A stretch of 44,730 nucleotides of DNA from a virus (IMGVR_UViG_3300042261_002345:1-44730); one strand, 5' to 3'; numbered from the stretch's first letter, positions 1-36,378 are shown. Translations and numbers: made by a program. Notes: a model not told the origin generated them from the sequence alone.

Positions 1-655
1 ACAGGAACCAGAGGTCGGGGTCCGCTACTGACTTGACAACAGCAGGTGAATTCACCGACCACCGTCGCGTCTGTAACGAGTACTCAATGTGTCCCAGCAA
101 TGATAGGCGTCGGGCAACAGTATACGGAGACAACTGACCGCCACGAGCACCGTCAAGAGCACCAAGCAGCAAGCCGCAGGCACTGCAGAAGGTCTCCCAG
201 GAACCTTCTCCCTGAGCCGACAACCAGTTCAGCAACTGCTCATGAGCCTGGAGATACTCGAACGTTGCAGAACTCTCCGAGGCCACTCCATCTGCATCGT
301 CATCGCGCGCTGCGTCTCCACGGACCCGGGCATCGTAGAGATACAGAAAGGGATGGTTGCTGCCCGTATCGAATTCCCCTCTGACCATGCACTGGATCTG
401 TTCGAGCGTCAGTTGCTGCGGCAGCGGTTGAGCGATGCCAGCAGTCCTACATACATCGGACACCTGCTCGGGCAGGGAAGCGCCTTCTCGGCATTCGACC
501 CCAAGAAACAGGTAGAACTGGCCACGGGGCCTCTTCTCAACCTTGACAAGGGGAATTCGGTGCCCCATTCGCTGCTGTCGCACCGCATTCCTGATCCTGG
601 TCAAGATGTTGGCAGGCATACCAGCGCACATACAAGCATAGTACACGAGAGCCAC
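1..655 (-). CDS. Unknown protein, 3' end outside window (defence cluster)
   Basis: Reading the minus strand by hand from 655 gives an uninterrupted frame of about 218 codons that runs off the left edge, so the C-terminus is missing. The start is GTG at 655-653, preceded by a strong AAGGAGG ribosome site 7 nt away that lies over the end of the upstream gene (stop at 660-658, 2 nt gap). This indicates translational coupling. The visible part begins MALVYYACMCAG and ends near RRWSVNSPAVVKS; the stretch TVARRLSLLGHIEYS has the look of a winged-helix recognition helix and wing. I recognise no family. By position it is the last visible member of the helicase/570-aa gene run and probably works with them. 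The reading frame is well supported; the function is unknown. Confidence 0.75.
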   Translation of the reverse strand, partial: MALVYYACMCAGMPANILTRIRNAVRQQRMGHRIPLVKVEKRPRGQFYLFLGVECREGASLPEQVSDVCRTAGIAQPLPQQLTLEQIQCMVRGEFDTGSNHPFLYLYDARVRGDAARDDDADGVASESSATFEYLQAHEQLLNWLSAQGEGSWETFCSACGLLLGALDGARGGQLSPYTVARRLSLLGHIEYSLQTRRWSVNSPAVVKSVADPDLWFL

Positions 656-657
656 GC

Positions 658-2370: not shown

Positions 2371-2381
2371 GTATTGCCTCC

Positions 2382-4352: not shown

Positions 4353-4478
4353 ATAGCCCCCTCGCAGTGGCTGCGACGGACGCGTGATGGAAGTGTGCTC
4401 GCAGCTATACCAGCGTCAACGCTGCTTTGTAACTGAGCGAAGTCCGCTCGTCAACATATTAGCAGACACGGTACGCAA

Positions 4479-4925
4479 CTATCGCGATGCCGGCTTCTGA
4501 GTTGGCCGAGCAAGGAAGCCGACAAGCCGCGATATGAGTGCCCGTCGCTTTGCAGGCGTTGTGTGGCACTCCCACACAATAAGGACTTCCCAGCCCTCGC
4601 GTCTCAATTGTAATCGCGTCCGGCGATCCCGAGCAACGTTTCTCCGAAGTTTCTTCATCCAGAAATCGCGGTTGGTTGACGGGGATGATTGGCCCTTGCG
4701 GCAGGAGTGCCGATGCCAAAAGCACCCGTGGACAAGAATGATCTTTCGTTTTGATGAAAAGACGAGGTCTGGACAACCGGGAAGAGATCGCTTGTGGAGG
4801 CGGTATCGGTATCCGAGGCCGTGAACCAGACGCCGCACAGTCATCTCGGGGCTCGTGTCAGTCCCTCGAATCCGGCTCATGATCTCACTGCGAAGCTTGT
4901 GGGATATTGTGTCCACGGTCCGCAC
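4479..4925 (-). CDS. vsr: Very short patch repair (Vsr) endonuclease
   Basis: The sequence follows the Vsr family throughout: LRSEIMSRIRGTDTSPE at the N-terminus, then YRLHKRSLPGCPDLVF with the catalytic Asp, VHGCFWHRHSC zinc-site residues, RDFWMKKLRRNVARD, and GWEVLIVWEC. Vsr nicks next to T:G mismatches made by deamination of 5-methylcytosine and so protects the sites of a partner C5 methylase, here the gene at 5740-7191. The GTG at 4925 is preferred because GAGGA stands 9 nt upstream. Alternatives are the GTG at 4916 and the ATG at 4943. The ATG at 4943 would share the palindrome CATG with the start codon of the divergent HNH gene. The length of about 148 aa is normal for the family. Confidence 0.9.
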   Translation of the reverse strand: MRTVDTISHKLRSEIMSRIRGTDTSPEMTVRRLVHGLGYRYRLHKRSLPGCPDLVFSSKRKIILVHGCFWHRHSCRKGQSSPSTNRDFWMKKLRRNVARDRRTRLQLRREGWEVLIVWECHTTPAKRRALISRLVGFLARPTQKPASR

Positions 4926-4941
4926 ATGATACCATCCTCGC

Positions 4942-5736
4942 ATGTCCGACTCAAACCCCATAGGTCGCAAGGCACTGACCCGACGGCAGCAGCAGTTGCT
5001 TGACGCCTTTCTGGCGTTCGGCGTTGGAGAACGCGTGACTTTGGACCAGTTGCGTCAGCAAATGGGCCTGCCACTTAATGCCCAGCAACAGCTTCGCCGC
5101 CGCATCTCGGAGCTTGCTGGTCTGGGTTACGACGTCGGGCGGGTCGGCCAGGAAGGGCGAGTGCACTACTATTCCCTGAAGAGCCGACAGCCGGTAGGGC
5201 CTGCTCGTTCCCGCGACGGTCTCTCAAACAAGGACCGAGCCCGAGCTTTGAACGGGGCGGCGGGACGGTGCCAGATGTGCGGCAAAACGATTGTGGACGA
5301 TAAGATCAAGCTCGTCATTGACCACAAGATTCCACTGGACTGGGGAGGAGGGAACGAGCCGGGCAACCTTTGGGCCATCTGCGAGCAGTGCAACGGTGGC
5401 AAGAAGGACCTGTTCCGGTCCTTCGACGCCGACCTAATGCGACAGTGCATGAGCTTCCCCGAGGAACCGCGTCGCATTGGCGAACTGCTCAAGGCGTTCA
5501 AGGGCTCAGCCCCTCCCAGATACCTTCTGTCTATTGTGGGCGGCGGCGCGGAGTGGACGAAGCGTCTTCGCCAACTGAGGCTGCTGGGCTGGCGGATCGA
5601 GAAGGTCTGGTCGAAGGATGAAGGGAACTGGACATATCGTCTCGTCCAAGACCGGCCGTGGCCCGACAACGTGTGGCGAGCTATTAAAGACGTTGAAGAC
5701 AGAGACGAAGGCAAAGAGACGGAAGAAGAATCGTAG
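4942..5736 (+). CDS. HNH endonuclease with N-terminal winged helix, likely restriction enzyme
   Basis: A 264-aa protein. Residues 10-80 form a winged-helix-like domain (RRISELAGLGYDVGRV). An HNH zinc nuclease follows: C110-x2-C113, the catalytic pair DH at 127-128 within VIDHKIPLDWGGGN, Asn142 and C147-x2-C150. The C-terminal 80 residues contain a second helical/wing-like segment. It lies between the C5 methylase (convergent, stops 3 nt apart) and vsr (divergent). That is the usual company of a type II restriction enzyme, so it is probably the endonuclease cognate to the methylase. The recognition site cannot be read from sequence. Being on the opposite strand, it can be expressed independently of the methylase. 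HNH fold certain; restriction role inferred. Confidence 0.9.
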   Translation: MSDSNPIGRKALTRRQQQLLDAFLAFGVGERVTLDQLRQQMGLPLNAQQQLRRRISELAGLGYDVGRVGQEGRVHYYSLKSRQPVGPARSRDGLSNKDRARALNGAAGRCQMCGKTIVDDKIKLVIDHKIPLDWGGGNEPGNLWAICEQCNGGKKDLFRSFDADLMRQCMSFPEEPRRIGELLKAFKGSAPPRYLLSIVGGGAEWTKRLRQLRLLGWRIEKVWSKDEGNWTYRLVQDRPWPDNVWRAIKDVEDRDEGKETEEES

Positions 5737-5739
5737 TCG

Positions 5740-7191
5740 TCACTTGGCAGTATGGGCGGCGACGAGTTGTGAGCGGCCGCCGGTCTGTTCCAGCATCGCC
5801 CTCACATGGCGGGCAATCGCTTCTGCCAAGGCTGGCGGCACTGCATTGCCGATCTGCTTGGCCACACTTATCTTACTCCCGCAGAAGACAAAGTCGTCAT
5901 CGAAGCCTTGAAGCCGGGCAGCCTCTCGGTGCGTAATCGGCCGGTTCGCTTCGGGATGCAGATAACGTCCCTTTTCTGGCTTATAGAACTCCGTACGAAT
6001 CGTGACCGAAGGGCGGTCCCACCAGAGCCGACCGAACAGATCCGTTCCCCCCTTGGTCTTACGTTTCCAACAGTCGGGCGTTAACTGCGGCGGCAAGTCC
6101 CAACGGTTGCCGCCCGCTGGAATGCAGGCGTACCGCTTCACCGACTTCTCCGTGGGATTCCTGCCAATGTGCCAGTCTTCGTTCGTTGGCCGGAATGGCA
6201 GGTCACCGATAGCATCCCTCACCGTCCGCCAAGGCGGGAGGTCGGCAGTGTCGAGTGTGCGTTTTTCGGGGCACACGTGCGTCTGCGGCGGCCTCATCGG
6301 TGTCATCTCTCGCCATCCGATGATGATGGCTCGCTTTCTGGTTTGCGGCACGCCATAGTCGGCCGCGTTCAGAACCCACTTGTCCACATGAAAGCCGAGA
6401 GCTTTGGTGGCAGCACAGATCTCCACCAGTTCTTGGGATTTCATGATCGGCGGCACGTTCTCCATGACAAAAATGCGGGGCTCGGCATCCTCGATTGCCC
6501 GCAGGAAATGCCGCCAAAGCTGGCGACGCGGGTCGTAGGGTACTTTCTCGCCGAGATTGCTGAATCCTTGACACGGGGGGCCGCCAACCACTACATCGGC
6601 CTTGGGAAACTTGACAATCTCCTCGACGGCACATTGAGCTACGCGCTCGGTCACGTTGGCCCGCAAGCTATCACAGGCGTCGGAATCCCACTCGACAGCC
6701 AGAACAGTCTGGAAGCCAGCCTGCTTGAATCCGACAGCCATCCCGCCGCACCCGGCAAACAACTCCAGAACCGTGGGGCCGAGCCCATCCAACGGTTGAG
6801 CCATGACTTGCTGCCACTCAGTCTCGCGATCGCCGACGGTGTGGAAAGGATACAGCCGATAGTCGCGCTCGCCGATGCGTTCAAGTGCTACCACGTCGCC
6901 GGGCTTTATCTGGTGCTTCTCGAAGAACTCCCTAACCCAAGTCCTGGCACGAAATTCTTTGCGGGGTTTCCCCGTCCTGGCATCGCGCGCGATATCCGTC
7001 TCAATGGTCTTGCGCATGCCCTCCAGGCGAATCCGAATGCTGCTCCCCGCCCGCCCCTGCGCCAGGTTGGAGTCTCCAAAGCAATCGGCCGGGAAGAAGT
7101 CGTAGTGCCCGGTAACATAGATATGGCTATTGCGGATATTCCCGGCCGTGACCCGGATCAGCCGCTTTCTTTCCGATACTCTTCCGCTCAC
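5740..7191 (-). CDS. DNA (cytosine-5-)-methyltransferase with N-terminal B3-like DNA-binding domain
   Basis: A 483-aa protein. Residues 10-118 (IRNSHIYVTGHYDFFP, then RARTWVREFFEKHQIKPGD) look like the B3-like DNA-recognition domain found in some restriction proteins. The methylase occupies 138-480: motif I FAGCGGM (145-151), motif IV GGPPCQGFS with catalytic Cys207, motif VI MENVPP with Glu244, motif VIII QTRKR, motif IX REAARLQGF and motif X QIGNAVPP. It transfers methyl from SAM to cytosine C5. The start GTG at 7191 has GGGAG 7 nt upstream. Neighbours are the convergent HNH nuclease and, further on, vsr: a restriction-modification plus mismatch-repair set. Catalytic assignment is firm; target sequence unknown. 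Confidence 0.95.
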   Translation of the reverse strand: MSGRVSERKRLIRVTAGNIRNSHIYVTGHYDFFPADCFGDSNLAQGRAGSSIRIRLEGMRKTIETDIARDARTGKPRKEFRARTWVREFFEKHQIKPGDVVALERIGERDYRLYPFHTVGDRETEWQQVMAQPLDGLGPTVLELFAGCGGMAVGFKQAGFQTVLAVEWDSDACDSLRANVTERVAQCAVEEIVKFPKADVVVGGPPCQGFSNLGEKVPYDPRRQLWRHFLRAIEDAEPRIFVMENVPPIMKSQELVEICAATKALGFHVDKWVLNAADYGVPQTRKRAIIIGWREMTPMRPPQTHVCPEKRTLDTADLPPWRTVRDAIGDLPFRPTNEDWHIGRNPTEKSVKRYACIPAGGNRWDLPPQLTPDCWKRKTKGGTDLFGRLWWDRPSVTIRTEFYKPEKGRYLHPEANRPITHREAARLQGFDDDFVFCGSKISVAKQIGNAVPPALAEAIARHVRAMLEQTGGRSQLVAAHTAK

Positions 7192-7225
7192 GTCATACTC
7201 CCTATTGCGCCTCGTTCGTTTGCCA

Positions 7226-7255
7226 ATTCTACCTCAAGAGACACGGCCACTGCAA
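7226..7255 (-). promoter_or_regulatory. Possible promoter of the methylase gene
   Basis: On the minus strand TTGCAG and TAGAAT are separated by 18 nt, with the -10-like hexamer about 35 nt before the GTG of the methylase gene. The -10 matches 5 of 6 bases of the sigma-70 consensus; the -35 is weaker. This is suggestive only. Confidence 0.35.
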
Positions 7256-7321
7256 GTCCCGTTAACGCCCTGACGCGGACTTTCTCTCTGTCAAAGGACA
7301 GTCAACGACCGAGGGTTTGCC

Positions 7322-7349
7322 TTGCTGGGTCGACGGGGATGTGTATACT
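7322..7349 (+). promoter_or_regulatory. Possible promoter of the XRE regulator gene
   Basis: TTGCTG and TATACT are spaced by 16 nt, ending 47 nt before the ATG at 7397. With the minus-strand element at 7226-7255 this makes a compact divergent control region between the methylase gene and the XRE gene. In many restriction-modification systems such a region is bound by the XRE-type controller; here that is only inferred. Confidence 0.35.
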
Positions 7350-7396
7350 GCCACCAATGGCTGCGATTCTAGGGCATTCGCAAGTCGGAGGACTCT

Positions 7397-7828
7397 ATGG
7401 GCAAGCTAGAGGCAGTCCTGAAGAGTGAAATCGGACGGTTGGCCCGTCGCGAGGCCAAGGCTCTCATGGGCAAGCACGTCGACGAAGTCCGCCGACTACG
7501 AAGACGGGTGGTTTCGCTGGAGCGTGAGATCGGGGTGATGAAGGCTGCGCTCGCTCAGGAGCAGGCCAAGCGGAAGGTGACGACCGCAGTCGAAACCGTG
7601 GCTGGCGAGAAGGGGCCGACGATTCGCCTTTCGCCACGCCTGATCCGGTCACTTCGCAGTCGGCTGGACATCAGCCAAGCCGAACTGGCCAAGCTCGTGG
7701 GTGTCAGCACACTGGCGGTTGGCAACTGGGAGTTGGGCAAGGCCAAGCCCCGCCCCGAGAGCAAGGCCCGGATTGCTGCTCTGCGCGGTCTCGGGCGGCG
7801 AGAGGTCCGACGGTTGCTCACGCAGTGA
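7397..7828 (+). CDS. XRE-family HTH regulator with N-terminal coiled coil
   Basis: A 143-aa protein. Residues 1-65 are charged and heptad-like (VRRLRRRVVSLEREIG), probably a coiled-coil dimeriser. Residues 80-135 hold a Cro/C1-type HTH: SQAELAKLVGVSTLAVGNWE, followed by the usual lysine/proline-rich turn. GGAGGA lies 5-6 nt before the ATG. The gene diverges from the cytosine methylase gene and precedes the NERD/zinc-ribbon gene by 59 nt on the same strand. It may control both, like a C-protein, although C-proteins are normally shorter. Stand-alone housekeeping homologues also exist, so the link to the restriction genes is a guess from position. Confidence 0.8.
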   Translation: MGKLEAVLKSEIGRLARREAKALMGKHVDEVRRLRRRVVSLEREIGVMKAALAQEQAKRKVTTAVETVAGEKGPTIRLSPRLIRSLRSRLDISQAELAKLVGVSTLAVGNWELGKAKPRPESKARIAALRGLGRREVRRLLTQ

Positions 7829-7887
7829 ACAAGCGTTGGGCGTTCACACGGGCGATCTCTTCGTAAGGTACAGCCAGGGAGGTTTAC

Positions 7888-9165
7888 ATGCTCTGCAAGG
7901 AAATCGACTACGCCGCGGCCATCCAGCAGTGGCAGACGCTTCTCGACGGCAACTCGTTGTCCGCCAGCCAGAAGCAGCAGGCCCGGTACTGCTTGGCCGG
8001 CCTCCAGGCCGAGAAGGACATGGCCTACCACCTGAAGGTCTTCTTCGCGGACCGCGACTCGTTCGCCGTCTTCAACAACCTGAAGGTCGAGCACAACGGC
8101 CTCACCGCCCAGGTTGATCACCTGGTGCTGACCCGCTGGACCGCCTACTTCATCGAGTCCAAGAGCGTCTCCCAGGTCATCACGGTCAACGAACACGGCG
8201 AGTGGGGTCGAATCCACAATCGCCGCTTCACTCCCATTGAGTCGCCGGTCGAGCAGTCCAGGCGGCACAAGGAGACGCTGTACAACTTCATGACTGAGCA
8301 CCGCAGCGAGTTCATGGGCAAACTGCTCGGCCTGATGACCAAGCACTTCGCCCGCCTGCTGACGCCCATGCACTACGTGGCCGTGTCCACGCACGGACAG
8401 ATTCAGGGACGCGGCCGGCGGAAGTTCCCCCAGGTGATGAAGGCCGACCAGATTCCGCACGCGATCCTGGCTCACCACGAGGCCCTGAACACCGGGTTAC
8501 TCAGTCTCTCGACCAAGGACGAAGACCTGGAGGCATTCAACAAGAAGGAGTTCGCCGCTGCCATCCAGTTCCTGCTGAAGCGCGATGTGGCCCCAGCGCC
8601 GATTGCTGAGGTCCGGCGGTTTGCCACAGAACTGCCGCAGAAGGCCGACCTGCCGGCCCAGGGCGAGCGCGAGGCCTCGGAGTCCGAGCTGGCCGAGGCT
8701 GATGATCAGCCGGTCGAAAGGCAATTTGCCTGCCGCAAGTGTGAATCGACGAATCTCTCGGTTGCCCACGGGCCATACGGCTACTACCTCAAGTGCAGCG
8801 CCTGCGGCGGCAACACGCCCATCGTGGAACTGTGCCAGAAGTGCTCTGAGAAGCTGAAGGTTTCGAAGTCGGGGGACGCCTACTCGCTAGTCTGTCCGAA
8901 GTGCAACCAGATCAGCCCACTCAGGGTTGGCTCTGGTGCCGAGAAGACCAAGGTTACACCGGACTCGCCGGCACCAAGGCCCGCTACCCCAACACCGAAG
9001 AAACCCGTTGCTGCGGCGTCGTCATCACCGGCCTGTCCCCTCTGTGGCTGCACGATGACCCTGCGTACTGCCCGGCATGGCAAGAACACCGGTGGTCAGT
9101 TTTGGGGCTGCGACAAGTACCCCAAGTGCAAAGGCATTGTGCCCACAGTGTCTGAAAACAAGTAG
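7888..9165 (+). CDS. NERD-domain nuclease-like protein with C-terminal zinc ribbons
   Basis: A 425-aa protein. Residues 40-150 are a NERD domain: AEKDMAYHLK, an Asp at about 77 (AQVDHLVLT), FIESKSV (E90, K92) and EQSRRHKETL, the order seen in PD-(D/E)XK NERD proteins. The C-terminal half carries three cysteine modules: CRKCESTN...CSACGG, CQKCSEKL...CPKCNQ, and a topoisomerase-type zinc finger (CPLCGCTMTLR...FWGCDKYPKCKGIV). NERD proteins are thought to process DNA; topoisomerase-type fingers bind single-stranded DNA. A GGGAGG site precedes the ATG. It is the second NERD protein in the left 10 kb and ends 5 nt before the convergent stop of the first phage gene, which marks the module boundary. 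The exact role is unknown. Confidence 0.85.
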   Translation: MLCKEIDYAAAIQQWQTLLDGNSLSASQKQQARYCLAGLQAEKDMAYHLKVFFADRDSFAVFNNLKVEHNGLTAQVDHLVLTRWTAYFIESKSVSQVITVNEHGEWGRIHNRRFTPIESPVEQSRRHKETLYNFMTEHRSEFMGKLLGLMTKHFARLLTPMHYVAVSTHGQIQGRGRRKFPQVMKADQIPHAILAHHEALNTGLLSLSTKDEDLEAFNKKEFAAAIQFLLKRDVAPAPIAEVRRFATELPQKADLPAQGEREASESELAEADDQPVERQFACRKCESTNLSVAHGPYGYYLKCSACGGNTPIVELCQKCSEKLKVSKSGDAYSLVCPKCNQISPLRVGSGAEKTKVTPDSPAPRPATPTPKKPVAAASSSPACPLCGCTMTLRTARHGKNTGGQFWGCDKYPKCKGIVPTVSENK

Positions 9166-27286: not shown

Positions 27287-28183
27287 GTGGCCAAGCGGCA
27301 ACCAACATCATCACGCCCGCTGAGGGTCGGGGTAGTCCTCGTCCTGCTCTTGCTGGTGCTCCTTGGCGTCGGGGCCATCTGGCTGGTGCAGAACACCCGG
27401 ACGCCTTCTGCGGCAACACGGGGGCGGCCATCGCCAACGGTTGCCGCTCAGGAATCCACCGCCAGCCAGCCAGGACGCCCCGACCGCACCTACGCCTATG
27501 CCGGGCTGCCGAAGGGAGCGATGCCAGTCACCGTCCTCACGAACCTCGGCTACGTCGTCGGCTACAGCGAGGTGCGGCGTGACCCACTGTGGGTCTGCTA
27601 CCGGCTGGCCCGCGTGGCCAGCGAGCCGTCTTCGCCCCGGCCGGACCATTTCACAACCGACACCCGCACCAAGGCCCTGGTGACCCCGGACGCCTACACC
27701 CGCAGTGGTTACGACCGTGGTCACCTGGCACCCAACTACGGCATCGCCACGCGGTATGGTGACCAGGCCCAGCTGGAGACGTTCCGAATGTCGAACATCG
27801 TGCCGCAGACGCCGAACTTAAACCGCACCGTGTGGAAGCGTCTGGAGCAGTTTGAGGCCGACCAACTGGCCCAGCAGTGCGAGGAGGTCTGGGTGATCAC
27901 CGGGCCGGTCTTCGACGCCGCCATCGAGCGGCTCGCTAGCGGCGTGGAGGTTCCGGACGCCTGCTACAAGATCATTGCAGACGAGGACGGTGGCAAGCTG
28001 CGCGTGCTGGCCTTTATCATCCCGCAGGACACGCCGACCCAGGCCCGGATCGAAAGCTACCTGACGAGCGTCGATGAGGTGGAAAGGGAGACGGGGTTGG
28101 ATTTCCTGGCCGACCTGCCAGACGACGTCGAGAACCAGATTGAGGCCCAACGCCCGACAACCCTGTGGTATTCACCGAACTAG
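27287..28183 (+). CDS. Membrane-anchored DNA/RNA non-specific endonuclease (NUC1 family)
   Basis: A 298-aa protein starting at GTG 27287. A basic N-terminus and one strong hydrophobic span (about residues 13-35) anchor it in the membrane with the nuclease outside. The catalytic motif DRGHLAP is at 143-149 (His the general base), and the metal-binding Asn lies in MSNIVPQTPNLNRTVWKRLE. Family enzymes cut any DNA or RNA with Mg2+. The gene is opposite in direction to the virion genes and paired with an HNH gene 9 nt downstream. An exported nuclease in a phage could scavenge host DNA, block superinfecting DNA entry or attack rivals. The nuclease call is firm; the role is open. Confidence 0.92.
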   Translation: MAKRQPTSSRPLRVGVVLVLLLLVLLGVGAIWLVQNTRTPSAATRGRPSPTVAAQESTASQPGRPDRTYAYAGLPKGAMPVTVLTNLGYVVGYSEVRRDPLWVCYRLARVASEPSSPRPDHFTTDTRTKALVTPDAYTRSGYDRGHLAPNYGIATRYGDQAQLETFRMSNIVPQTPNLNRTVWKRLEQFEADQLAQQCEEVWVITGPVFDAAIERLASGVEVPDACYKIIADEDGGKLRVLAFIIPQDTPTQARIESYLTSVDEVERETGLDFLADLPDDVENQIEAQRPTTLWYSPN

Positions 28184-28192
28184 GGAGAAACC

Positions 28193-28966
28193 ATGGCCCA
28201 CAAGACCTCCAGGCAACTGACCGTCGGCAAGGTCTACACCCGGGATGACCTGCGAAAGCTCTTCGACATCCAGGACGCCACGCTGAACACCGGCATCTTC
28301 CAGCCTAGGGACTCGGACTCCATCTGGCTCTTCATTACCGAGCAGAAACAGTCGGACCGCACGCAGTATCACGACCTTCTGCGCGGGGACGCTCTGGACT
28401 GGGACAGCCAGCCGTCGGGCCGAAAAGATGACCTGATTATTGAACATGGCCGCCGAGGTCTGGAGATTCTTGTCTTTTACCGTAAGGAGAAGTACCAGCA
28501 TCCCCACGCTGGTTTCCGGTACGAAGGACCCTTCCGCTACGTTTCGCACTCGGGCAGACGCCCGGCCCATTTCGTGCTGGCCCGCGAGGGCGCCGCCGTG
28601 ACGGTCATGTTCCCGGATGAGGTCGCCTCGCCCACCGGCTTGATTGAGGGCGCCGTCCGCAGGGTCTCAGTGAACGCCTACGAGCGCAATCCCGTGGCGC
28701 GCGAGGCCTGCCTGGCGCACTACGGCTGCCGCTGTGTGGTCTGCTGGTTTGATTTCGAGGCCAACTACGGCACCCTCGGCAAGGGCTTCATCCACGTCCA
28801 TCACCTGAAGCAGCTCTCGCTACTAAAGGGCAAGTACGAGGTCGATCCGATCTCTGACCTGCGACCAGTCTGCCCGAACTGCCACGCCATGCTCCACACT
28901 CAGGAGCCACCGCTGGGAATCGTCGAACTGCAGAACATCATTCAAGAACACGCTCCGACGTCGTGA
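28193..28966 (+). CDS. HNH endonuclease with N-terminal DUF3427-like domain
   Basis: A 257-aa protein. Residues 10-130 have the DUF3427-like pattern (GKVYTRDDLRKLFDIQDAT; TLNTGIFQPRDSDSIWLF; FYRKEKYQHPHAGFRYEG). An HNH domain follows: C179/C181-x2-C184, HVHH at 201-204, then DLRPVCPNCHAMLH with C227-x2-C230. This architecture recalls modification-dependent (type IV) nucleases in which a beta-barrel reader is joined to HNH. If so, it could attack modified DNA of competitors. It is co-directional with the NUC1 gene (9-nt gap, GGGAGA ribosome site), and its 3' end overlaps the convergent zinc-ribbon gene by 29 nt. Domains seen; specificity unknown. Confidence 0.9.
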   Translation: MAHKTSRQLTVGKVYTRDDLRKLFDIQDATLNTGIFQPRDSDSIWLFITEQKQSDRTQYHDLLRGDALDWDSQPSGRKDDLIIEHGRRGLEILVFYRKEKYQHPHAGFRYEGPFRYVSHSGRRPAHFVLAREGAAVTVMFPDEVASPTGLIEGAVRRVSVNAYERNPVAREACLAHYGCRCVVCWFDFEANYGTLGKGFIHVHHLKQLSLLKGKYEVDPISDLRPVCPNCHAMLHTQEPPLGIVELQNIIQEHAPTS

Positions 28967-29135
28967 CGCGGGTTCCGCAGTGGCGGCAGTGCCGGTAGCG
29001 AATGATTCGTCCGTGGGCCCGCGTGGTGTGGTCCACCGGCAGGTCGCGGCATCCGCACTTGCGACATTCGAGGCCTGCGGGGCGATCCGCCGGCGGCCAC
29101 TTCTTTCGCGTGGCAGTTGCTTCCTCCAAGGTCAA
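28938..29135 (-). CDS. Small zinc-ribbon protein (paralogue of 36492-36671)
   Basis: A 65-aa protein with one four-cysteine ribbon: CRKCGCRDLPV ... HCRHCGTRVTTSERV. It shares with the protein at 36492-36671 the pattern C-x2-CGCR ... R-C/H-C-R-HCG-x-RVTT. Such ribbons resemble phage transcription or DNA-binding factors. It begins with ATG 29135, overlapping the terminase stop by 4 nt, so it is co-translated with it. Confidence 0.75.
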   Translation of the reverse strand: MTLEEATATRKKWPPADRPAGLECRKCGCRDLPVDHTTRAHGRIIRYRHCRHCGTRVTTSERVLE

Positions 29136-31417
29136 TTCCTCCTCAGGTCGTCCTGCGTGTACCGCTTCCGCGGCCGGACGGGCTTTTCGTCCATGCCGGC
29201 CGCCCGCACCCCCAGCATCGAGGCCGCCGCAGCACAGCCCACCAGGCAGTCCAGCCAGTGATTGTCCGGCTTAGCCGGCCGCAATGACCATTCATGCACC
29301 ACGCGGCCGTGGCCCTGCGTCTCAACCCACGTTTCCGAGTGAACTACGTGCTCGGCGAAGAGTTCGTGGTCGCGGCCCTTCGCGCCGAAGAGCGAGACGC
29401 AGCCCCGGTCGCCAGCGGCCGTGGCCAGCCCGGAGTGGACGAAGGTCTTCCAGTAGTTGACATCCACGGCCACGTGCGGGAACTCGGCGGTCCTGGCCAC
29501 GTTCGGGACGTACCAGAAATGGCCATGCACCTCACCGGGTTTGCGGGCGTAGCTCGACATCGGCTTTCGGCCCGCGCGGATGCCCAGGCCCTTGGAGAGC
29601 ATCATCACGGCACCGCCAGCCTTGTGCTTCACGTCGGCCACCAGGCCCGGCTTGAAGCCCATGTCCACCAACAGCCGGTCGATGCGAACCAGCCCCTGGC
29701 CGCGCTTGAAGTCGCGGGCCAACTGCGCCGCCACCAGCTTCTCCAGACCGGCCCGGATGGCGCCGTCCGTGCCCACACCGGGGGCGGCCCGGCCGAGGGT
29801 CTTCTTGGCCTCGGCCATCGTGAAATAGCCCCTGGGCTGCTCCGGGAACGTGCCGTAGTCGACGACGTAGCCCGTGAAGCTCTCCTCCCACGCGCAGACG
29901 CACCAGTAGAGCAGCTTCTCGTGGACGTCGACGAACATCGTCAGCTTCGTCGCCGCCAGCGGCACCTCGCCCCGGGCGCGGCCGTTGGTCTTCTCCATGA
30001 CCTGCTCGACCGTGAGAATCTGGTCATGGAGCTGCTCCTGCATCGGTTCGTTCTGGTACTCAGCGAAGAACGCCTCCTCGTCCCGCATCTTCAGGTTCAT
30101 GGCATGCTGGAGCGCCGACAGCTCCTTCTTGGCGTCGAACCGCTCCGGCCAGGCGACCACGGCGCCCTGATCCATCTCGGCGCGGTGCCGGCCGTAGAAA
30201 TCCGTGGCCTCTTCGCCGCCGTGACCCTGCCGCAGGCTCTCGGCCCGCATGTCGGCGTACTTCTGCCAGAGCTTCTCGTTGGCCGGGAAGCTGTAGACGA
30301 GCTTCGTGCACTCGGCCTGCCACTCCGGGCACTTGTCGTGGTCGAGCAACTGGTCGGCCAGGTCGCCCTCGTAGATTTTCGTGCACGTTAGAACGCCCGC
30401 GATCTCCTCGCCGGGGCCGGCCAGACCCAGCACGTCGCCGTTGAGGAGCTGGAGCCGATACCGGGTCTGGGTCGGCGACCGGGCCGACTGCCGGGTCTGC
30501 GGGTCGTCGAGCAGCACCAGCGATGGCCGGATGGTCGAGCCGTCCATGCGGGTGTGCTGCTGGCCGCGCATGTTGGCGTCAAGGCTGGTAATGGTGATGA
30601 TGCTGCCGGAGGACGGGCTCGCCTCCGCGCCCGCCTCGCGCAGGGCCTGCGGCAAGTGCTCGGCCTCCACCGTGGGGAACACCAGCTTGTCCTGGCCCCA
30701 GTGAACGTGCGTCAGCCGCCCCTGGACGTGCTGCTGGAGCTGCCGCTTCGACGAGTTCTCCAGGCACCTGAGGGGATAGACCGCCTCGGGGAAGTCGGCC
30801 AGCAGGCCGGGGTTCTCGAGGATGTACTTCTTCACCGGCAAGAGCAGGTCCTTGGCCCGCTCATCTGACCCGCCGATCAGGCAGACGAACGGCCGGTAGC
30901 CGACGAGCACGGCCCACAGGGCCGACAGCCGCGCCAGCGTGGTCTTCCCCGACCCGCGGGGCATGGCGAACGCAAACAGTCCGCCGTCCTTGACCGCCCG
31001 CTCGATCTTGGCCAGCACCTTCAGGTGGTCCGGCGACCAGGCCCGATAGAACGCCCGCGGGAAGTAGGTCTCGCAGAAGAGCCGCAGCGACGCGCTCGTG
31101 GCCAGCCGACGGTCGTAATCCTCGACCTCCGGGATGGGGAAGATGTCCTGCGCCGCCTTGGTGCCGGCCCGGTTCTTCTCGGCCTGCCGCCGGCGGGCCT
31201 CGACGTAATCGACGGGCTTCGGCCGGGGCCGGTCAATCTCCCGCGCCAGCCAAGCCACGTAGCGCACCAGGTGGATGCGGTGCCCGTCGCCGACGCGGAA
31301 GGCGGCCTTGTCCATCTGACGGCGCAGCCGCGACCGGTCCAGCACCGTGCCCAGGGGTGTGGCGTTGACGATCTGGAGCAACTCGGTCTGCGAGAGGCTG
31401 GTTACGTCAATCGGCAC
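29132..31417 (-). CDS. Terminase large subunit with N-terminal HTH domain
   Basis: A 761-aa protein. Residues 5-65 form a small-subunit-like HTH module (TELLQIVNATPLGTVLDRSR; HRIHLVRYVAWLAREIDRP). The packaging ATPase follows: Walker A PRGSGKTT (153-160), Walker B VLLDDPQT (301-308). The C-terminal nuclease is RNase H-like, with an Asp in MFVDVHEKLLYWCVCAWEES and another in RIDRLLVDMGFKPGLV. The style is close to gpA-type terminases of GC-rich prophages. It cuts and packages phage DNA into proheads. Start GTG 31417 overlaps the small-subunit gene by 11 nt, with AGGAG 7 nt upstream. Confidence 0.92.
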   Translation of the reverse strand: MPIDVTSLSQTELLQIVNATPLGTVLDRSRLRRQMDKAAFRVGDGHRIHLVRYVAWLAREIDRPRPKPVDYVEARRRQAEKNRAGTKAAQDIFPIPEVEDYDRRLATSASLRLFCETYFPRAFYRAWSPDHLKVLAKIERAVKDGGLFAFAMPRGSGKTTLARLSALWAVLVGYRPFVCLIGGSDERAKDLLLPVKKYILENPGLLADFPEAVYPLRCLENSSKRQLQQHVQGRLTHVHWGQDKLVFPTVEAEHLPQALREAGAEASPSSGSIITITSLDANMRGQQHTRMDGSTIRPSLVLLDDPQTRQSARSPTQTRYRLQLLNGDVLGLAGPGEEIAGVLTCTKIYEGDLADQLLDHDKCPEWQAECTKLVYSFPANEKLWQKYADMRAESLRQGHGGEEATDFYGRHRAEMDQGAVVAWPERFDAKKELSALQHAMNLKMRDEEAFFAEYQNEPMQEQLHDQILTVEQVMEKTNGRARGEVPLAATKLTMFVDVHEKLLYWCVCAWEESFTGYVVDYGTFPEQPRGYFTMAEAKKTLGRAAPGVGTDGAIRAGLEKLVAAQLARDFKRGQGLVRIDRLLVDMGFKPGLVADVKHKAGGAVMMLSKGLGIRAGRKPMSSYARKPGEVHGHFWYVPNVARTAEFPHVAVDVNYWKTFVHSGLATAAGDRGCVSLFGAKGRDHELFAEHVVHSETWVETQGHGRVVHEWSLRPAKPDNHWLDCLVGCAAAASMLGVRAAGMDEKPVRPRKRYTQDDLRRN

Positions 31418-31589
31418 GGCCCATCTCCTTGTTTAGCCAGGCAGCGTACTGCACCAGGTTGATCCGACCGTCTGGGCCGGTCGGCAGGCCCCTGGCCACG
31501 TGCTCACGGACCTTCTCCACCGGCAGCGACAGCAGCCGCGCCGCCTCTTCCACTGCCAGGCCCGCCGGGTTCATCGCTGTCGTTTCCAC
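31407..31589 (-). CDS. Small HTH protein, terminase small subunit candidate
   Basis: A 60-aa protein starting at GTG 31589 (GAGAGG 6-7 nt before it; the ATG at 31574 has none). It reads LAVEEAARLLSLPVEKVREH, then INLVQYAAWLNKEMGRAD, and resembles the N-terminal module of the large terminase (HLVRYVAWLAREI), indicating domain duplication. Its length is far below that of usual small terminases, so DNA recognition may be shared between this protein and the fused module. Confidence 0.7.
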   Translation of the reverse strand: METTAMNPAGLAVEEAARLLSLPVEKVREHVARGLPTGPDGRINLVQYAAWLNKEMGRAD

Positions 31590-31630
31590 GCCGGTTCCTC
31601 TCCGCCCAGGATTCTCATGGATCATTGCAC

Positions 31631-31693
31631 ATTACTTCTGGATTGGCCTTGCTTCGCGCCCGGAAGATGGTAACTGATCGTCAACAACGCAGG
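31631..31693 (+). promoter_or_regulatory. Shared upstream block, copy A (before 31719)
   Basis: This block and 32341-32404 share CTTCT-GGA-TG-CCTTGCT-CG (one gap), and both have AACGCAGGCCA starting exactly 37 nt after the first T of TTGCT. Both lie just upstream of plus-strand genes (26-33 nt before the ATG). The match between two non-coding stretches with fixed spacing suggests a common promoter or activator site. No textbook -35/-10 pair is present in either. Confidence 0.55.
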
Positions 31694-31718
31694 CCACGAC
31701 GCAAAGGAGAGCAGGACC

Positions 31719-31994
31719 ATGAAGATCGCCAGCATCACCCTCGAAGGCAGCGCCGACCGCAAGACAGGCCTGCCGGTAGCCTTCGCCACCATCCGCCGCC
31801 CCAGCGGCGGCGAGTACATCGAGGTGACCATCGACTGGCCGAGCGGTCGCAGCCGCAAGCACCTGGTGGCGGCCAACGACCGCGACGACCAGTGGTCGAT
31901 GGCCGAGGGCCTGCAGGAGACCCTCGACGGCCACAAGGGCACGGGCAGCATGGTGCACGACTACTTCCGCGAGATCGAACGTTTCGCCGACTGA
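31719..31994 (+). CDS. Small unknown protein, first gene of the amidoligase locus
   Basis: A 91-aa protein with an AAAGGAG ribosome site. It reads as a small alpha/beta domain (MKIASITLEGSADRKTG; YIEVTIDWPSGRSRKHLVAA; MVHDYFREIERFAD). No family recognised. It is followed 12 nt later by an acidic 73-aa gene and shares its upstream control block with the amidoligase gene. It could be the amidoligase substrate or a helper, but this is only suggested by co-location. Confidence 0.7.
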   Translation: MKIASITLEGSADRKTGLPVAFATIRRPSGGEYIEVTIDWPSGRSRKHLVAANDRDDQWSMAEGLQETLDGHKGTGSMVHDYFREIERFAD

Positions 31995-32006
31995 AAGGAG
32001 ACCGCC

Positions 32007-32228
32007 GTGGACGAACGCGAGATGGAAACCGCCCTCAACGACCTCTTCGCCGAACTGATCCTCGAGGCCGACTGCGACGAATACCCCGAGGACCTCCCCG
32101 ACGAGCTGCGTGGGGTCGAGATGGTGCGGACCTTCGATGAGGCCGGGATTCTGACGTACAACAAGGGGCTGGTCCTGCGGATGAAGGACGGCAGCGAGTT
32201 CCAGATCACCGTCGTCCGCAGCAACTGA
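32007..32228 (+). CDS. Small acidic protein
   Basis: A 73-aa protein starting at GTG 32007, with AAAGGAG about 9 nt upstream. It is very acidic (MDEREMETALNDLFAELIL; DCDEYPEDLPDEL) and ends with a short beta hairpin (GLVLRMKDGSEFQITVV). Acidic small proteins in phages often mimic DNA or serve as peptide-ligation targets. It is followed by a hairpin (32253-32285), which closes this two-gene unit. Function unknown. Confidence 0.7.
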   Translation: MDEREMETALNDLFAELILEADCDEYPEDLPDELRGVEMVRTFDEAGILTYNKGLVLRMKDGSEFQITVVRSN

Positions 32229-32252
32229 CCCGCCCGCCGGCGCTCCCGCCAG

Positions 32253-32285
32253 ACGGCCGCCCACCGGCATTGCCGGGGCGGCCGT
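32253..32285 (+). terminator. Strong hairpin after the acidic gene
   Basis: Nested stems ACGGCCGCC/GGCGGCCGT and CCGGC/GCCGG with a 3-nt loop and a 2-nt bulge, followed by TTCC. The stem is strong but the T-tract is poor, so it may be an attenuator or Rho-assisted terminator. Confidence 0.45.
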
Positions 32286-32340
32286 TTCCACGTCAGTTAG
32301 CCTCAATTCAGGCCCCGAAAGATTCCATTCATAATTCTGC

Positions 32341-32404
32341 ATTTCTTCTTGGAATGCCCTTGCTCCGGTCGCATTCATGCGGCTTAATGTGTGTGTAACG
32401 CAGG
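32341..32404 (+). promoter_or_regulatory. Shared upstream block, copy B (before the amidoligase gene)
   Basis: This is the second copy of the block at 31631-31693 and keeps the same 37-nt spacing from TTGCT to AACGCAGG. It lies in a locally AT-rich pocket (about 32318-32355) and ends 20 nt before the amidoligase ATG, including its AAGGAG ribosome site. Confidence 0.55.
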
Positions 32405-32423
32405 CCAGAACAAGGAGATACGA

Positions 32424-33347
32424 ATGACAAGGCACGCACAGAGACACGAGCAGAACCCGAAAGCCGCGGAGATCACCTTCGGCTGCGAGATCGAATGCTT
32501 CCTGCCGCGGGGCAGCGTCCGCATTGGGGCTTACCACGCGGGCATCGAGCTGGGCGGCCGGTTCCCCAGGGGCTGGAACGCCCAGCGCGACGGCAGCCTT
32601 CAGACCAGCCTCCCGAACTACGAGGGGGTCGAGATTGTCAGCCCGGTCCTGCGGGGCCGCGAGGGGCTGGAGCAGGTCAAGCAGGTCGCCGCCCTCCTCG
32701 AGGAGATGGGCGGGCGGGTGTCGCGGGCCTGCGGGTTCCACGTACACCTTGGCTCGACCAGCATCGCGGGCGAGAACTTCGACGAGGTGGCGGACTTCGT
32801 AAGACGCCTCATTAACGTAACCGCCCAGCACGAGCAGGCCCTCTACGGCGCAGCGGGCACCAAGTCCCGCGAACGCGGCACCTATTGCCGCAGCATCAAG
32901 ACCGCCTGGGGCCACAAGAAGGACCGCCTGCGGAAGAAGATCAAGGCCGACGACCTCAGGCTGGAAAGCGCAGGCATCAGCCGCTACCAGAGCCTCAACC
33001 TGGTTCCCCTGTTCGGCCGCAACAAGACGGTCGAGTTCCGGTGCTTCAGCGGGACGACGAGCGGCCTGAAGATGACGGCCTGGATTCAGATGGCCCTGGC
33101 CCTGGCGAACCTCGCCCAGGCCCGCAATACCCGGTTCGACGCCCCGACGACCGGCTACGCCGACACGACCACCGCGGTGGGGGCGATGCAGAGGTTCTTC
33201 TACCTCGCCGGATGGACCCGCGGCCGCAAGGACTACTACAAGCCGGTCTGCGTCGCCGAGGGCTGGGTCGACGAGATGAAAAACCTCGACGAGGCCAAGC
33301 GCGAGTTGATGCGGCTGGCCCGCAAGTACGACGAGCAGGCGGCCTGA
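32424..33347 (+). CDS. Amidoligase-like enzyme (COOH-NH2 ligase family)
   Basis: A 307-aa protein. The start ATG 32424 has AAGGAG 7 nt upstream. The family signature is easy to follow: TFGCEIECF (E22, E24), RDGSL (D56), GVEIVSPVLRG (E70), ACGFHVHLG (H106, H108), a Tyr/Arg segment RGTYCRS, then YQSLNLVP and TVEFRCFSGTT (E204, R206). These are the acidic and His positions of the glutamine-synthetase/GCS-like amidoligases, which use ATP to join a carboxylate to an amine on peptides or small molecules. The gene has its own control block and is followed by a HARE-HTH gene. The substrate may be one of the two small proteins upstream. Family assignment from motifs; substrate inferred. Confidence 0.85.
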   Translation: MTRHAQRHEQNPKAAEITFGCEIECFLPRGSVRIGAYHAGIELGGRFPRGWNAQRDGSLQTSLPNYEGVEIVSPVLRGREGLEQVKQVAALLEEMGGRVSRACGFHVHLGSTSIAGENFDEVADFVRRLINVTAQHEQALYGAAGTKSRERGTYCRSIKTAWGHKKDRLRKKIKADDLRLESAGISRYQSLNLVPLFGRNKTVEFRCFSGTTSGLKMTAWIQMALALANLAQARNTRFDAPTTGYADTTTAVGAMQRFFYLAGWTRGRKDYYKPVCVAEGWVDEMKNLDEAKRELMRLARKYDEQAA

Positions 33348-33413
33348 GCCGCCTGCGGAAGCAGGCAACCAACCGCCCCGCACAACGCGGGGCCTAACAG
33401 AAGGAGACTGCAG

Positions 33414-34064
33414 ATGAAGAAGAACAATGTGAAGCTCGGAAGCGTGTACGCGGTGAAGGTCAGCGGCTCGGTGGTCCCGGTGCGCCTCGACCGGGAACAC
33501 TCCCAAGGGGGCTGGACGGGCACCAACATGAAGACGCGTAAGGAGGTTCGCGTGAAATCGGCCCAGCGCCTGCGGGGCCTCTGGCCGAAGAAGACGCTGC
33601 CCATTGCCACCGAAGCCATCACCCCCGAGGCGGCCCAGGCCATCCACCACGCCGACCAGGAGAACGCCCGGCTGGAGGAGGAGCGTGCCAACGCCCCGGA
33701 CGGGCAGACGGCCAGCGAGCGGGCGATGGCCACGTCGGCCCCCAAGGCCAAGAAGGACCGCAAGGCGGCCAAGGATGCGACGGACGAATCCGGACGCGGC
33801 ATCGGCGAACCTGACGCGACGGGGGCGAAGAAGGAGCGGCCGAGCCTGCTCAACCTCGCCGCCAAGGCCCTGGCCGAGGCGGGCCAGCCCCTGAACTGCA
33901 AAGAGATGGTCGAGAAGGTTCTCGCGACGGGCCTGTGGCAGACCGAGGGCAAAACGCCTGCGGCCACGCTCTACAGCGCCATCCTGCGCGAGATTGCCAC
34001 CAAGGGCGGGCAGGCCCGGTTCCGCAAAGTCGAGCGCGGCAAGTTCGAGGTTGTTGCGCAGTAG
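33414..34064 (+). CDS. HARE-HTH protein with SH3-like N-terminus
   Basis: A 216-aa protein. Residues 5-60 form a small barrel (KLGSVYAVKVSGSVVPVRLD). The middle is a disordered Ala/Lys/Asp linker. Residues 130-216 match the HARE-HTH domain: SLLNLAAKALAEAGQPLNCK, EMVEKVLATGLW, TPAATLYSAILREI and a final wing FRKVERGKFEV. HARE-HTH domains occur in RNA polymerase delta, restriction enzymes and chromatin proteins and are thought to sense DNA state or modification. It lies 66 nt after the amidoligase gene, behind two short hairpins (33351-33366 and 33376-33392). It ends 8 nt from the convergent radical SAM gene. Confidence 0.85.
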   Translation: MKKNNVKLGSVYAVKVSGSVVPVRLDREHSQGGWTGTNMKTRKEVRVKSAQRLRGLWPKKTLPIATEAITPEAAQAIHHADQENARLEEERANAPDGQTASERAMATSAPKAKKDRKAAKDATDESGRGIGEPDATGAKKERPSLLNLAAKALAEAGQPLNCKEMVEKVLATGLWQTEGKTPAATLYSAILREIATKGGQARFRKVERGKFEVVAQ

Positions 34065-34072
34065 CGCCACCA

Positions 34073-34966
34073 TCACAGCACCTCGCCTTCCGACGCCCCG
34101 GCCAGCACCAAGGCCGGGGCGTCCTCGTTCTGGACGTTGCCGCCAAGGTACTCCGCGTGGGTCGAGAAGATCATGGCCGGGCGGTTCCAGCGCCGCACGA
34201 AGCGGCTCCACTCCGGAGGGATCTTCGTCCGCCGGTCCTCGGCCGGCCGGAAGTACATGGCGAACGGCGTGCCGCCCGTGCGGAAGACCCATTCGAGCCG
34301 TTCCTCCGCGGCGGCCAGGGTGTCGCCGCGATAGCCCGCCAGCACGTAGCAGCCGACCTGACGCTGCGTGAGGCCCGCCGTGCGGAGCATGGTGATGGCG
34401 CGTTCGACGTGCGGCCGCTCGGACGGGTGGTCGAAGGCGGTGTAGAGAATCTGCACCCGCATGGTGCCGAGCCGTCGGGCAAACCACTCCTGGCAGAGCC
34501 GCGAGTCGATGCCGCCCGTGAACCGCGCCGCTTTGGGCTGCGCCTCCAGCATGTCGAGCACCGCCTCGACGTGGCTGTGCGGGCAGGCCAGCAGGTTGTT
34601 GTCCATGATGTCCCAGCCCATCTGGATCGGCAGCAACCGCAACGTGCCCTCCCGCTCCGGCACGAAGCAGAACGGGCACCGGCGGATGCAGCCGCGGCTG
34701 GTCATGGTCAGGCCCTGCTTCAGGTACAGGCCCGGCGTGAAGTCGCCTGCCGGCGAGCCGAAGGCCGGGCCGCCGATGCGCACCTTGTAGCCCTGGGCCT
34801 GCCAGGCCCGGTAGAGTCGGTTGGCTTCATCCACGTCCCACGTGAACACGCACGAGATGTGGACCTCGTCCACGTCCGGCAGGAAGAGCGGTGGATCGCC
34901 GACGAACGCCAGGTCGTCGTCGGGCGTGGCGCTGGTGCGACGGGGAAAGACGCGAGCAATCCTCAA
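34073..34966 (-). CDS. Radical SAM protein
   Basis: A 297-aa protein. The cluster motif is C93-x3-C97-x2-C100 within MTSRGCIRRCPFCFVPEREG. The following barrel strands show NNLLACPHSHVEAVLDMLEA, ARFTGGIDSRL, MRVQILYTAFDHPSER and VGCYVLAGYRGDTLAAAEER, as in B12-independent radical SAM enzymes. It cleaves SAM to a 5'-deoxyadenosyl radical. Its N-terminus (VHISCVFTWDVDEANRLYRA; IGGPAFG) resembles the radical SAM family with a B12-like N-terminal alpha/beta unit, but no cobalamin motif is clear. The stop/start overlap (34963-34966) ties it to the ParB-methylase gene. DNA or protein modification is plausible. Confidence 0.88.
   Translation of the reverse strand: MRIARVFPRRTSATPDDDLAFVGDPPLFLPDVDEVHISCVFTWDVDEANRLYRAWQAQGYKVRIGGPAFGSPAGDFTPGLYLKQGLTMTSRGCIRRCPFCFVPEREGTLRLLPIQMGWDIMDNNLLACPHSHVEAVLDMLEAQPKAARFTGGIDSRLCQEWFARRLGTMRVQILYTAFDHPSERPHVERAITMLRTAGLTQRQVGCYVLAGYRGDTLAAAEERLEWVFRTGGTPFAMYFRPAEDRRTKIPPEWSRFVRRWNRPAMIFSTHAEYLGGNVQNEDAPALVLAGASEGEVL
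34092..34123. terminator. Perfect 12-bp hairpin at the convergent gene ends
   Basis: GACGCCCCGGCC and GGCCGGGGCGTC are separated by 8 nt, inside the last codons of the radical SAM gene and 28 nt past the end of the convergent HARE-HTH gene. No T-tract on either strand, so a Rho-independent terminator is uncertain. Confidence 0.35.
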
Positions 34967-36378
34967 GCGGCCACCTCCTGGGCGCCGCCGGTGACCTCTG
35001 CGTCAGCCGGCTCTTCGGGCGAACCGGTCACAATCCTCTCGGCCTTCCGCCCCGTGAACTCCTCCCAGCGCTTGATGATCACGTCGCAGTAGAGCGGGTC
35101 CAGTTCCATGAGGTAGGCCCGCCGGCCAGTCTGCTCGCAGCCAATCAGAGTCGAGCCGCTGCCGCCGAAGAGGTCGAGCACGTTCTCGCCGGGCCGAGAG
35201 GAAAACTCGATGGCCTTTGCGGCCAGCTCCACCGGCTTCTCCGTCAGATGCACCATGTTCTGCGGGTTGACCTTCTTGACGTGCCACAGGTCGGTGGCAT
35301 TGTTGGGGCCGTAGTAGTGGTGCCCCGCGCCTTCCTTCCAGCCGTAGAACGCCAACTCGAAGGCCCCCATGAAGTCCTTGCGCGTCAGCACCGGGTGCTG
35401 CTTGTCCCAGACGATCCCCTGGGAGAAGTAAAGGCCTGCCCGCTTCAGGGGCGCCGGGTAGTTGCCGATGTTGGCATACCCGCCCCAGATGTAGAACGAG
35501 CCGCCGGGCTTCAGGACCCGCGAGGCGTTGCCGAACCAGGCGTCGAGCATCCGGTCGAAGTCCTCGTCGGAGACGAAGTCGTTGGCCAGCGGCCGGTCCT
35601 TGGCCCGCAGCTTCTTTGTCGTGGCCTGTGCGGCGCCCGGCCGGCGGGCGGCGTCGAAGCCCTGGTGATGTGTCAGGCCCTCGCGGCCGCGGCTGCGGTG
35701 CCCGTCCTCGCCGCGATAATCGACGTGGCGGGGGGCCTCGAAACTCGACAGCCCGGCGGCGATGGCGTTGTTCGACCTCGGCTCGACCTTCACGTTGTAC
35801 GGCGGGTCCATGTTCACCAGGTCGATGGTCGCGCCGTCCAGCAGCCGGTCCAGGTCCTCGGCCGACCCGCTGTCGCCGCACATCAGCCGGTGCTGCCCCA
35901 ACACCCACACGTCGCCCCGGCGGGTCGTGGCTTCGTCGGGCGGCTCAGGCACGGCGTTCTCGTCCGTCAGGCCGACCGTGCCGGCGGGAGCGAGCAGCGG
36001 GGCCAGCTCGTCCTCGGAGAACCCCAGCAGGCTCAGGTCGAAGTTCATGGCCTGGAGGTCCTTGATCTCGATGGGCAGCAGTTCCATGTTCCACTCGGCC
36101 AGCTCGGCGGTCTTGTTGTCGGCCAGCCTGTACGCCTTCACCTGCTCCGGTGAGAGGTCGGTGGCCACGTGGACCGGTACCTTCGCCAGGCCCAGCTTCT
36201 GCGCCGCCTTCCAGCGGGTGTGACCGCAGATGATCACGCCCGCGCCGTCGATGACGATGGGCTGGCGGAACCCGAATTCCTTCAGGCTTGCCGCCACGGC
36301 CTCGACCGCCTGGTCGTTCAGCCGGGGATTCTGCTCGTAAGGCTTGATGCTCCCGATGTCGCGCAACTCGATCTGCAT
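34963..36378 (-). CDS. ParB-like domain fused to DNA methyltransferase (N6-A / N4-C)
   Basis: A 471-aa protein starting at ATG 36378 (GAGGAGA 6 nt upstream). Residues 1-125 are a ParB/Srx-type domain (IKPYEQNPRLNDQAVEAVAA; VIICGHTRWKAAQKLGL). The methylase follows: motif IV NMDPPYNV (189-196), a long target-recognition region, then motif I VLDLFGGSGSTL and GRRAYLMELDPLYCDVI, the beta-class order. Such ParB-methylases are common in phages and mobile elements and methylate adenine or cytosine amino groups, often to evade restriction. A low-complexity insert (HRSRGREGLTHHQGF) lies between. It is coupled to the radical SAM gene. Confidence 0.92.
   Translation of the reverse strand: MQIELRDIGSIKPYEQNPRLNDQAVEAVAASLKEFGFRQPIVIDGAGVIICGHTRWKAAQKLGLAKVPVHVATDLSPEQVKAYRLADNKTAELAEWNMELLPIEIKDLQAMNFDLSLLGFSEDELAPLLAPAGTVGLTDENAVPEPPDEATTRRGDVWVLGQHRLMCGDSGSAEDLDRLLDGATIDLVNMDPPYNVKVEPRSNNAIAAGLSSFEAPRHVDYRGEDGHRSRGREGLTHHQGFDAARRPGAAQATTKKLRAKDRPLANDFVSDEDFDRMLDAWFGNASRVLKPGGSFYIWGGYANIGNYPAPLKRAGLYFSQGIVWDKQHPVLTRKDFMGAFELAFYGWKEGAGHHYYGPNNATDLWHVKKVNPQNMVHLTEKPVELAAKAIEFSSRPGENVLDLFGGSGSTLIGCEQTGRRAYLMELDPLYCDVIIKRWEEFTGRKAERIVTGSPEEPADAEVTGGAQEVAA

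Follow-up and report, generated by a model that had tools for sequence, protein, structure and literature searches.

A phage amidoligase as probable exchangeable cargo of a HARE-linked slot between terminase and methyltransferase genes

Amidoligase_2 enzymes are expected to activate carboxylates as acyl-phosphates and to couple them to amines in an amide bond. They are widespread in phages, and to our knowledge none of the phage members has been assigned a substrate. The family (PF12224), also called the COOH-NH2 ligase family, was reportedly treated by Iyer et al. in 2009. One of the closest described cases is Phage-ZRK32, a planctomycete phage which, according to the accessible part of its description, has genes for an amidoligase, a glutamine amidotransferase, a glutathione synthase and GGCT (PMC10945688). 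Here we examine an amidoligase gene (AL) in a virus record from IMG/VR; the whole 44.7 kb stretch analysed is referred to as the window.

Locus and control regions

The plus strand of the window carries four consecutive genes, s91, s73, AL and HARE, whose third-position GC (0.89–0.93) and plausible ribosome-binding sites make them look coding. The flanking phage operons run in the opposite direction: on the minus strand are terL and a small HTH gene to the left, and radical-SAM and methyltransferase genes to the right. The opposite-strand layout noticed in the initial annotation is thus upheld. The region between terL and the methyltransferase gene is called the slot below. Its features are as follows.

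29132–31417, minus strand: terL, terminase large subunit, left border (PF20454, phrog_38)
31407–31625, minus strand: small HTH protein, left border, overlapping the terL start (weak HTH_17 match)
31647–31694, plus strand: s91 upstream control block, CCTTGCTTCG-N29-AACGCAGGC (one of two matches in the window)
31719–31994, plus strand: s91, 91-aa slot protein (open reading frame; homologues at the same position in many related phages, mostly without AL)
32007–32228, plus strand: s73, 73-aa acidic protein, pI 4.06, GTG start (open reading frame; 32 relatives in viral contigs)
32251–32287, plus strand: s73–AL intergenic hairpin, terminator-like, U tail weak (RNA fold)
32358–32405, plus strand: AL upstream block with the candidate promoter TTGCTC(32360)-17-CTTAAT(32383) and a conserved putative transcript start AACGCAGGC (conserved in relatives)
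32424–33347, plus strand: AL, 307-aa amidoligase of the COOH-NH2 ligase family (PF12224, E = 4e-24)
33414–34064, plus strand: HARE, 216 aa (PF05066, E = 1.9e-10)
34073–34966, minus strand: radical-SAM protein, optional, on the methyltransferase side (phrog_9298, E = 3.6e-27)
34963–36378, minus strand: ParB–N6/N4 DNA methyltransferase, right border (PF01555, PF02195, phrog_498, E = 6e-131)

An alternative start for AL is an upstream in-frame GTG at 32391, which would give a protein of 318 aa. None of s91, s73, AL and HARE matched a PADLOC model; among these neighbours the methyltransferase alone did.

The repeated control blocks that had been proposed for the locus are real: the 44.7 kb contain just two copies of the pattern CCTTGCTNCG-N29-AACGCAGGC, one at 31647 and the other at 32358, and none was obtained in 100 shuffles. 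Local alignment of the s91 and AL upstream blocks gave a score of 22, while the best of 2000 shuffles reached 15, and the AL block is, judging from its sequence, a duplicate of the s91 block. It is kept with identical spacing before AL in two relatives, L001 and L002. TTGCYC-N17-CTTAAT would be a promoter of sigma-70 type, placing the start of the transcript near AACGCAGGC; a strict consensus scan returned no sigma-70 promoter at the AL block and no terminator at the s73–AL hairpin. This hairpin has 16 pairs and a short U tail, and the fold of 32229–32298 reached −35.6 kcal/mol (z = −2.3). Taken together, the conserved AL block and the hairpin make it more likely that AL and HARE form their own transcription unit than that they are part of an s91–s73 operon. 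A sigma-54 reading of the TGG..TTGC motif was rejected, both because the GG-GC spacing is 9 and not 10, and because the conserved TTGC-N17-CTTAAT fits a sigma-70-type promoter better.

Outside the slot, positions 1–9165 of the window are lower in GC and resemble a host defence island, with helicase-like, HNH, C5 DNA methylase, HTH and NERD-nuclease genes. Since these first 9 kb hold non-structural, defence-like genes, the window may comprise a provirus plus a host flank. Between the portal gene and terL, at 27287–28966 on the plus strand and thus opposite to their surroundings, lie two genes that may mark a second cargo position; one encodes a non-specific endonuclease (PF01223), the other a DUF3427/HNH protein.

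The enzyme and the slot that carries it

Both family calls made earlier for this locus, amidoligase and HARE-HTH, were borne out by Pfam profile matches above the cut-off. AL matched PF12224 Amidoligase_2 with 86.3 bits (curated cut-off 22, E = 4e-24), and HARE matched PF05066 HARE-HTH with 41.4 bits (cut-off 25.9, E = 1.9e-10). The window AL is 83–88% identical to those of L001 and L002, an end-to-end alignment of five ALs gave a mean column identity of 72%, and the N-terminal ExE pair, the HVH (HxH) and the Y...N...EFR positions are invariant among 13 AL relatives. Estimates of dN/dS were about 0.14–0.20, and the dN of 0.085 against a dS of 0.60 between the window and L002 points to purifying selection on AL. 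For the AF2 model of AL (pTM 0.88), almost all of the top PDB fold matches were to glutamine synthetase, GCL/glutathione-synthase-like proteins, Dop and PafA. Although these matches are individually weak (E of 8e-3 and up, probability up to 0.97), they agree on one superfamily, which makes the fold match informative. Searches of PDB sequences with AL and HARE gave nothing useful, and AL has no sequence match to solved structures. Profile, alignment and model together identify AL as a real member of the carboxylate–amine ligase family, with a predicted GS/GCL-type fold and conserved acidic, His and Arg positions.

The HARE protein is basic, and its alignment consists of a conserved N-terminal domain, a Lys/Ala-rich linker and the C-terminal HARE-HTH. 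A stand-alone 60-aa version of the N-terminal domain, lacking the HARE-HTH, is found just upstream of AL in two loci (L184:5832-6014 and L191:7206-7388). Among the papers searched, none names both amidoligase and HARE-HTH.

To place the four genes in context, about 100 comparable loci were gathered by searching viral contigs, genomes and phages with AL, HARE, s73 and s91. Most of them have the same layout, with terL and the HTH gene on one strand, the opposite-strand group next, and then the ParB-methyltransferase; HARE is a nearly constant member of the slot, and s91 and s73 are frequent ones. In an independent scan, 80 of 249 HARE relatives were taken, and removal of identical HARE sequences left 72 distinct loci. 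Among these 72 loci, terL lies near HARE in 67 (on the opposite strand in 65 of the 67), the methyltransferase is present in 62, homologues of the small HTH protein in 54, s91 in 35, s73 in 18, AL in 11, a class II glutamine amidotransferase (GAT-II) in 7, and the radical-SAM gene in 3; the last was also seen in L101. The linkage between HARE and AL is therefore recurrent. AL was detectable in 70 of 50,697 phage records, and the comparison of 11/72 with 70/50,697, which gives a rough scale since the search methods differ, indicates that AL is strongly enriched in the slot. An earlier count of 4 in about 40 loci had made AL look very rare there; the HARE scan supersedes it.

The usual partner of AL in the related slots is GAT-II, and the gene order varies: HARE-AL-GATII (L156, L170, L178 and L181), AL-GATII-HARE (L173), AL-GATII-s91-HARE (L171), AL-HARE (L001 and L002) and s91-s73-AL-HARE (the window). 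AL and HARE thus occur without s91 and s73 in L001 and L002, and most slots with s91 and s73 have no AL. The view that the four genes act as one self-contained unit is accordingly not supported; the comparison points instead to a variable slot anchored by HARE.

The contents of the slot also appear to be exchanged. The DNA block 32287–34047 is 83.7% identical to L002, whereas the terL proteins are 50% identical; L001 can be aligned at the DNA level in the AL part only (32358–33340), and its terL is 39% identical in protein. Of the slots in the Phycisphaerae MAG from which both L001 and L002 come (G001), two are of the AL-HARE type and three carry s91-HARE but no AL. Further cargo includes Fic, PIN-domain toxins and Doc; Mom and radical-SAM genes occur on the side of the methyltransferase. 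An AL–HARE block that is more alike than terL, different alleles within one MAG and the varied cargo all argue for an exchangeable accessory slot. Several individual loci are of interest in their own right. A Mom-family DNA modification gene (PF25680, E = 6e-44) lies within the terL–methyltransferase slot at L035:5630-6400 (minus strand). At L019:6564-6683 (minus strand), an apparent remnant of a radical-SAM gene start stands beside an inserted Fic gene, which suggests replacement within the slot. A 7.38 Mb planctomycete contig (G357:C1; e.g. L093 and L111-L114) has 14 copies of s91 and at least 12 terminase homologues belonging to this phage family, apparently reflecting heavy poly-lysogeny by related prophages.

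The phylogenetic tree contains one clade with the ALs of L001, L002 and the window (100/100) and a second with the remaining slot ALs (100/99). The former groups with AL-GATII pairs adjoining lysis genes of other viruses (85/85). This topology suggests two entries of AL into the slot. Two independent acquisitions were not accepted as established, since a single origin was not rejected (AU test, p = 0.15).

Small proteins and possible roles of the ligase

Neither s91 nor s73 matched a Pfam family or, at a meaningful level, a PHROG, in agreement with their description as small proteins of no known family. The further proposal that they are the tagged substrates of AL fared less well. Such tagging would mean that AL puts a residue or a peptide on s73 or s91, or s73 on targets in the manner of PafA and Pup; the PafA/Dop fold predicted for AL would suit this, and so would s73, which belongs to a wide family of small phage proteins (55–90 aa) that are acidic throughout and have a conserved G-x-V...DGSEFQIT core. 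Moreover, s73 lies close to AL in the window, in L011 (order AL-GATII-s73), in PV036454, where AL is followed by a 101-aa ORF and then s73 at a distance of about 0.5 kb, and in the G362 slot (s73, 65-aa ORF, HARE, AL, 69-aa ORF, GAT-II). It would thus be wrong to say that AL homologues are never linked to the small genes, since several phages have both s73 and AL in one slot, and the two genes are close in L011 and PV036454; the link is occasional only. PV036454 is the sole s73 match among the 50,697 phage records, and most s73 loci have no AL inside about 5 kb. As both families are accessory in the terminase/methyltransferase region, some of the closeness is explained without a functional link, though one may exist.

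The neighbourhood survey for recurring small partners likewise went against the proposal. In the 72 loci, s73 was no commoner in slots with AL than in those without (4/11 vs 14/61, p = 0.45), and s91 was negatively associated with AL (1/11 vs 34/61, p = 0.007); both Fisher p-values are approximate, since the loci share ancestry and contig ends truncate some of them. The s73 model (pLDDT 84.6) has a predicted N-terminal helix followed by beta strands, including an ordered C-terminal strand, and found no match in a PDB fold search. The C-terminus varies across the family (SR, SN, SK or extensions), with no conserved acceptor and no Pup-like GG-E/Q. A Pup-like role is unlikely for s73, which is predicted to be folded, its C-terminal strand being ordered, and which has no acceptor conserved at that end. 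Since related phages usually carry s91 and s73 without AL, while L001 and L002 carry AL without either, the two proteins are not dedicated substrates of AL. We therefore regard protein tagging as very improbable. In unrelated phages, AL clusters contain small ORFs of about 70 aa immediately ahead of GAT-II (L055:5248-5460 and L092:625-834, minus strand), and these might be truer small partners of AL than s73.

Two other explanations involve the neighbouring genes or the metabolism of the host. AL, together with GAT-II where this is present, could add or amidate a group on a modified base in DNA hypermodification or anti-restriction, with HARE reading the modified DNA and the ParB-methyltransferase and radical-SAM protein acting in the same pathway. 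The methyltransferase bordering the slot in 62 of the 72 loci, the Mom gene in one slot (L035), the adjacent radical-SAM gene in the window and a few relatives, and the position of ALs of other phage groups, which also lie near ParB/MTase and terminase genes, are all consistent with such a pathway. HARE and other winged-helix domains are also said to have been discussed in connection with methyl-adenine-sensing restriction. However, about 85% of the methyltransferase-bearing slots have no AL, and a second clade of ALs, adjoining lysis genes, showed no methyltransferase partner. The radical-SAM gene is rare and independent of AL, and the neighbourhood of AL revealed no base-synthesis genes. Hypermodification thus appears unlikely. 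AL might alternatively be an auxiliary gene of nitrogen or amino-acid metabolism, a function in nitrogen use having been proposed for the Phage-ZRK32 gene set in the accessible part of its description (PMC10945688). GAT-II beside AL in most related slots would agree with this, whereas no GAT-II or GGCT partner is detectable in the window, and the role of the Phage-ZRK32 genes is, in the same text, itself deduced from growth and gene content (PMC10945688); we consider this explanation doubtful as well. A bolder idea is that HARE, AL and in some cases GAT-II constitute a new phage modification system, in which HARE directs the ligase to DNA or a DNA-bound protein for the addition of an amide-linked amino acid or amine. 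The added group would then protect the phage or reprogram the lysogen. This idea seems to us quite improbable.

The best reading is that AL is moron-like cargo, its substrate being predicted from knowledge of the family. AL is probably a functional ATP-dependent carboxylate–amine ligase, carried as mobile and separately promoted cargo in the terL–ParB-methyltransferase slot of a lineage of temperate planctomycete phages. The enzyme would activate a carboxylate as an acyl-phosphate and attach ammonia or another small amine. This carboxylate would most likely be the gamma-carboxyl of glutamate or one of glutamyl type in a cell-wall compound or metabolite. Since GAT-II adjoins AL in most related slots, where it would supply ammonia, this is presumably the usual amine. 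In the window, tblastn with two GAT-II proteins found none, and Pfam scans of most window proteins revealed neither GAT-II nor GGCT, although the window is a fragment and a GAT-II may lie elsewhere. The window AL would therefore use ammonia in free form, a different amine or an amidotransferase of the host. As acceptors, our guess is that cell-envelope or glutamyl metabolites are to be preferred, DNA or protein being less likely. The enzyme may serve a fitness or host-conversion function, such as a change in the envelope or a metabolite, and would not depend on the lytic operons for its expression. HARE, as the constant member of the slot, would be its putative DNA-binding regulator or a reader of modified DNA outside the chemistry, with s91 and s73 as frequent optional members.

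The enzyme itself belongs to a known family. What is new is its phage setting, which recurs, is exchangeable and is tied to HARE, and in particular the linkage of HARE and AL, often with GAT-II. With this, s91 and s73 lose their status as default substrate candidates, and GAT-II, as a source of ammonia, and HARE take their place. The related prophages with and without AL in one MAG offer a natural presence/absence comparison for the function of AL.

Comparison with known systems

Compared with other members of PF12224, the window AL is typical in exceeding the family cut-off, in its invariant ExE, HxH and EFR positions and in its predicted GS-like fold, and differs in adjoining HARE, with no GAT-II, GGCT or ATP-grasp partner detected in the window. 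Phage-ZRK32 is a tenuous parallel. It likewise is a planctomycete phage with an amidoligase, but it is described as a chronic phage with a glutamine amidotransferase, glutathione synthase and GGCT, and no HARE slot is mentioned in the accessible part of the source (PMC10945688). The AL family is also found in the tailed Arthrobacter phages Kovu and Ottawa, in Bacillus phage 035JT001 and in Heliusvirales phages, in the last of which AL often lies near ParB/MTase and terminase genes. The ALs of these phages are, however, only about 25–33% identical to that of the window; GAT-II or GGCT is present, and no HARE is annotated adjacent to them.

The PafA/Dop enzymes of pupylation appear, from the model, to have their superfamily fold in common with AL. 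In contrast to pupylation, the AL locus has no Pup-like tag, AL lacks a sequence match to solved structures, and the obligate linkage of ligase and tag is absent, as AL occurs without s73 in L001 and L002 and s73 mostly without AL. Like the moron slots of temperate phages, this locus lies on the opposite strand, has putative upstream control of its own and exchanges alleles between related prophages, and it differs from them in that it is anchored by a constant HARE protein.
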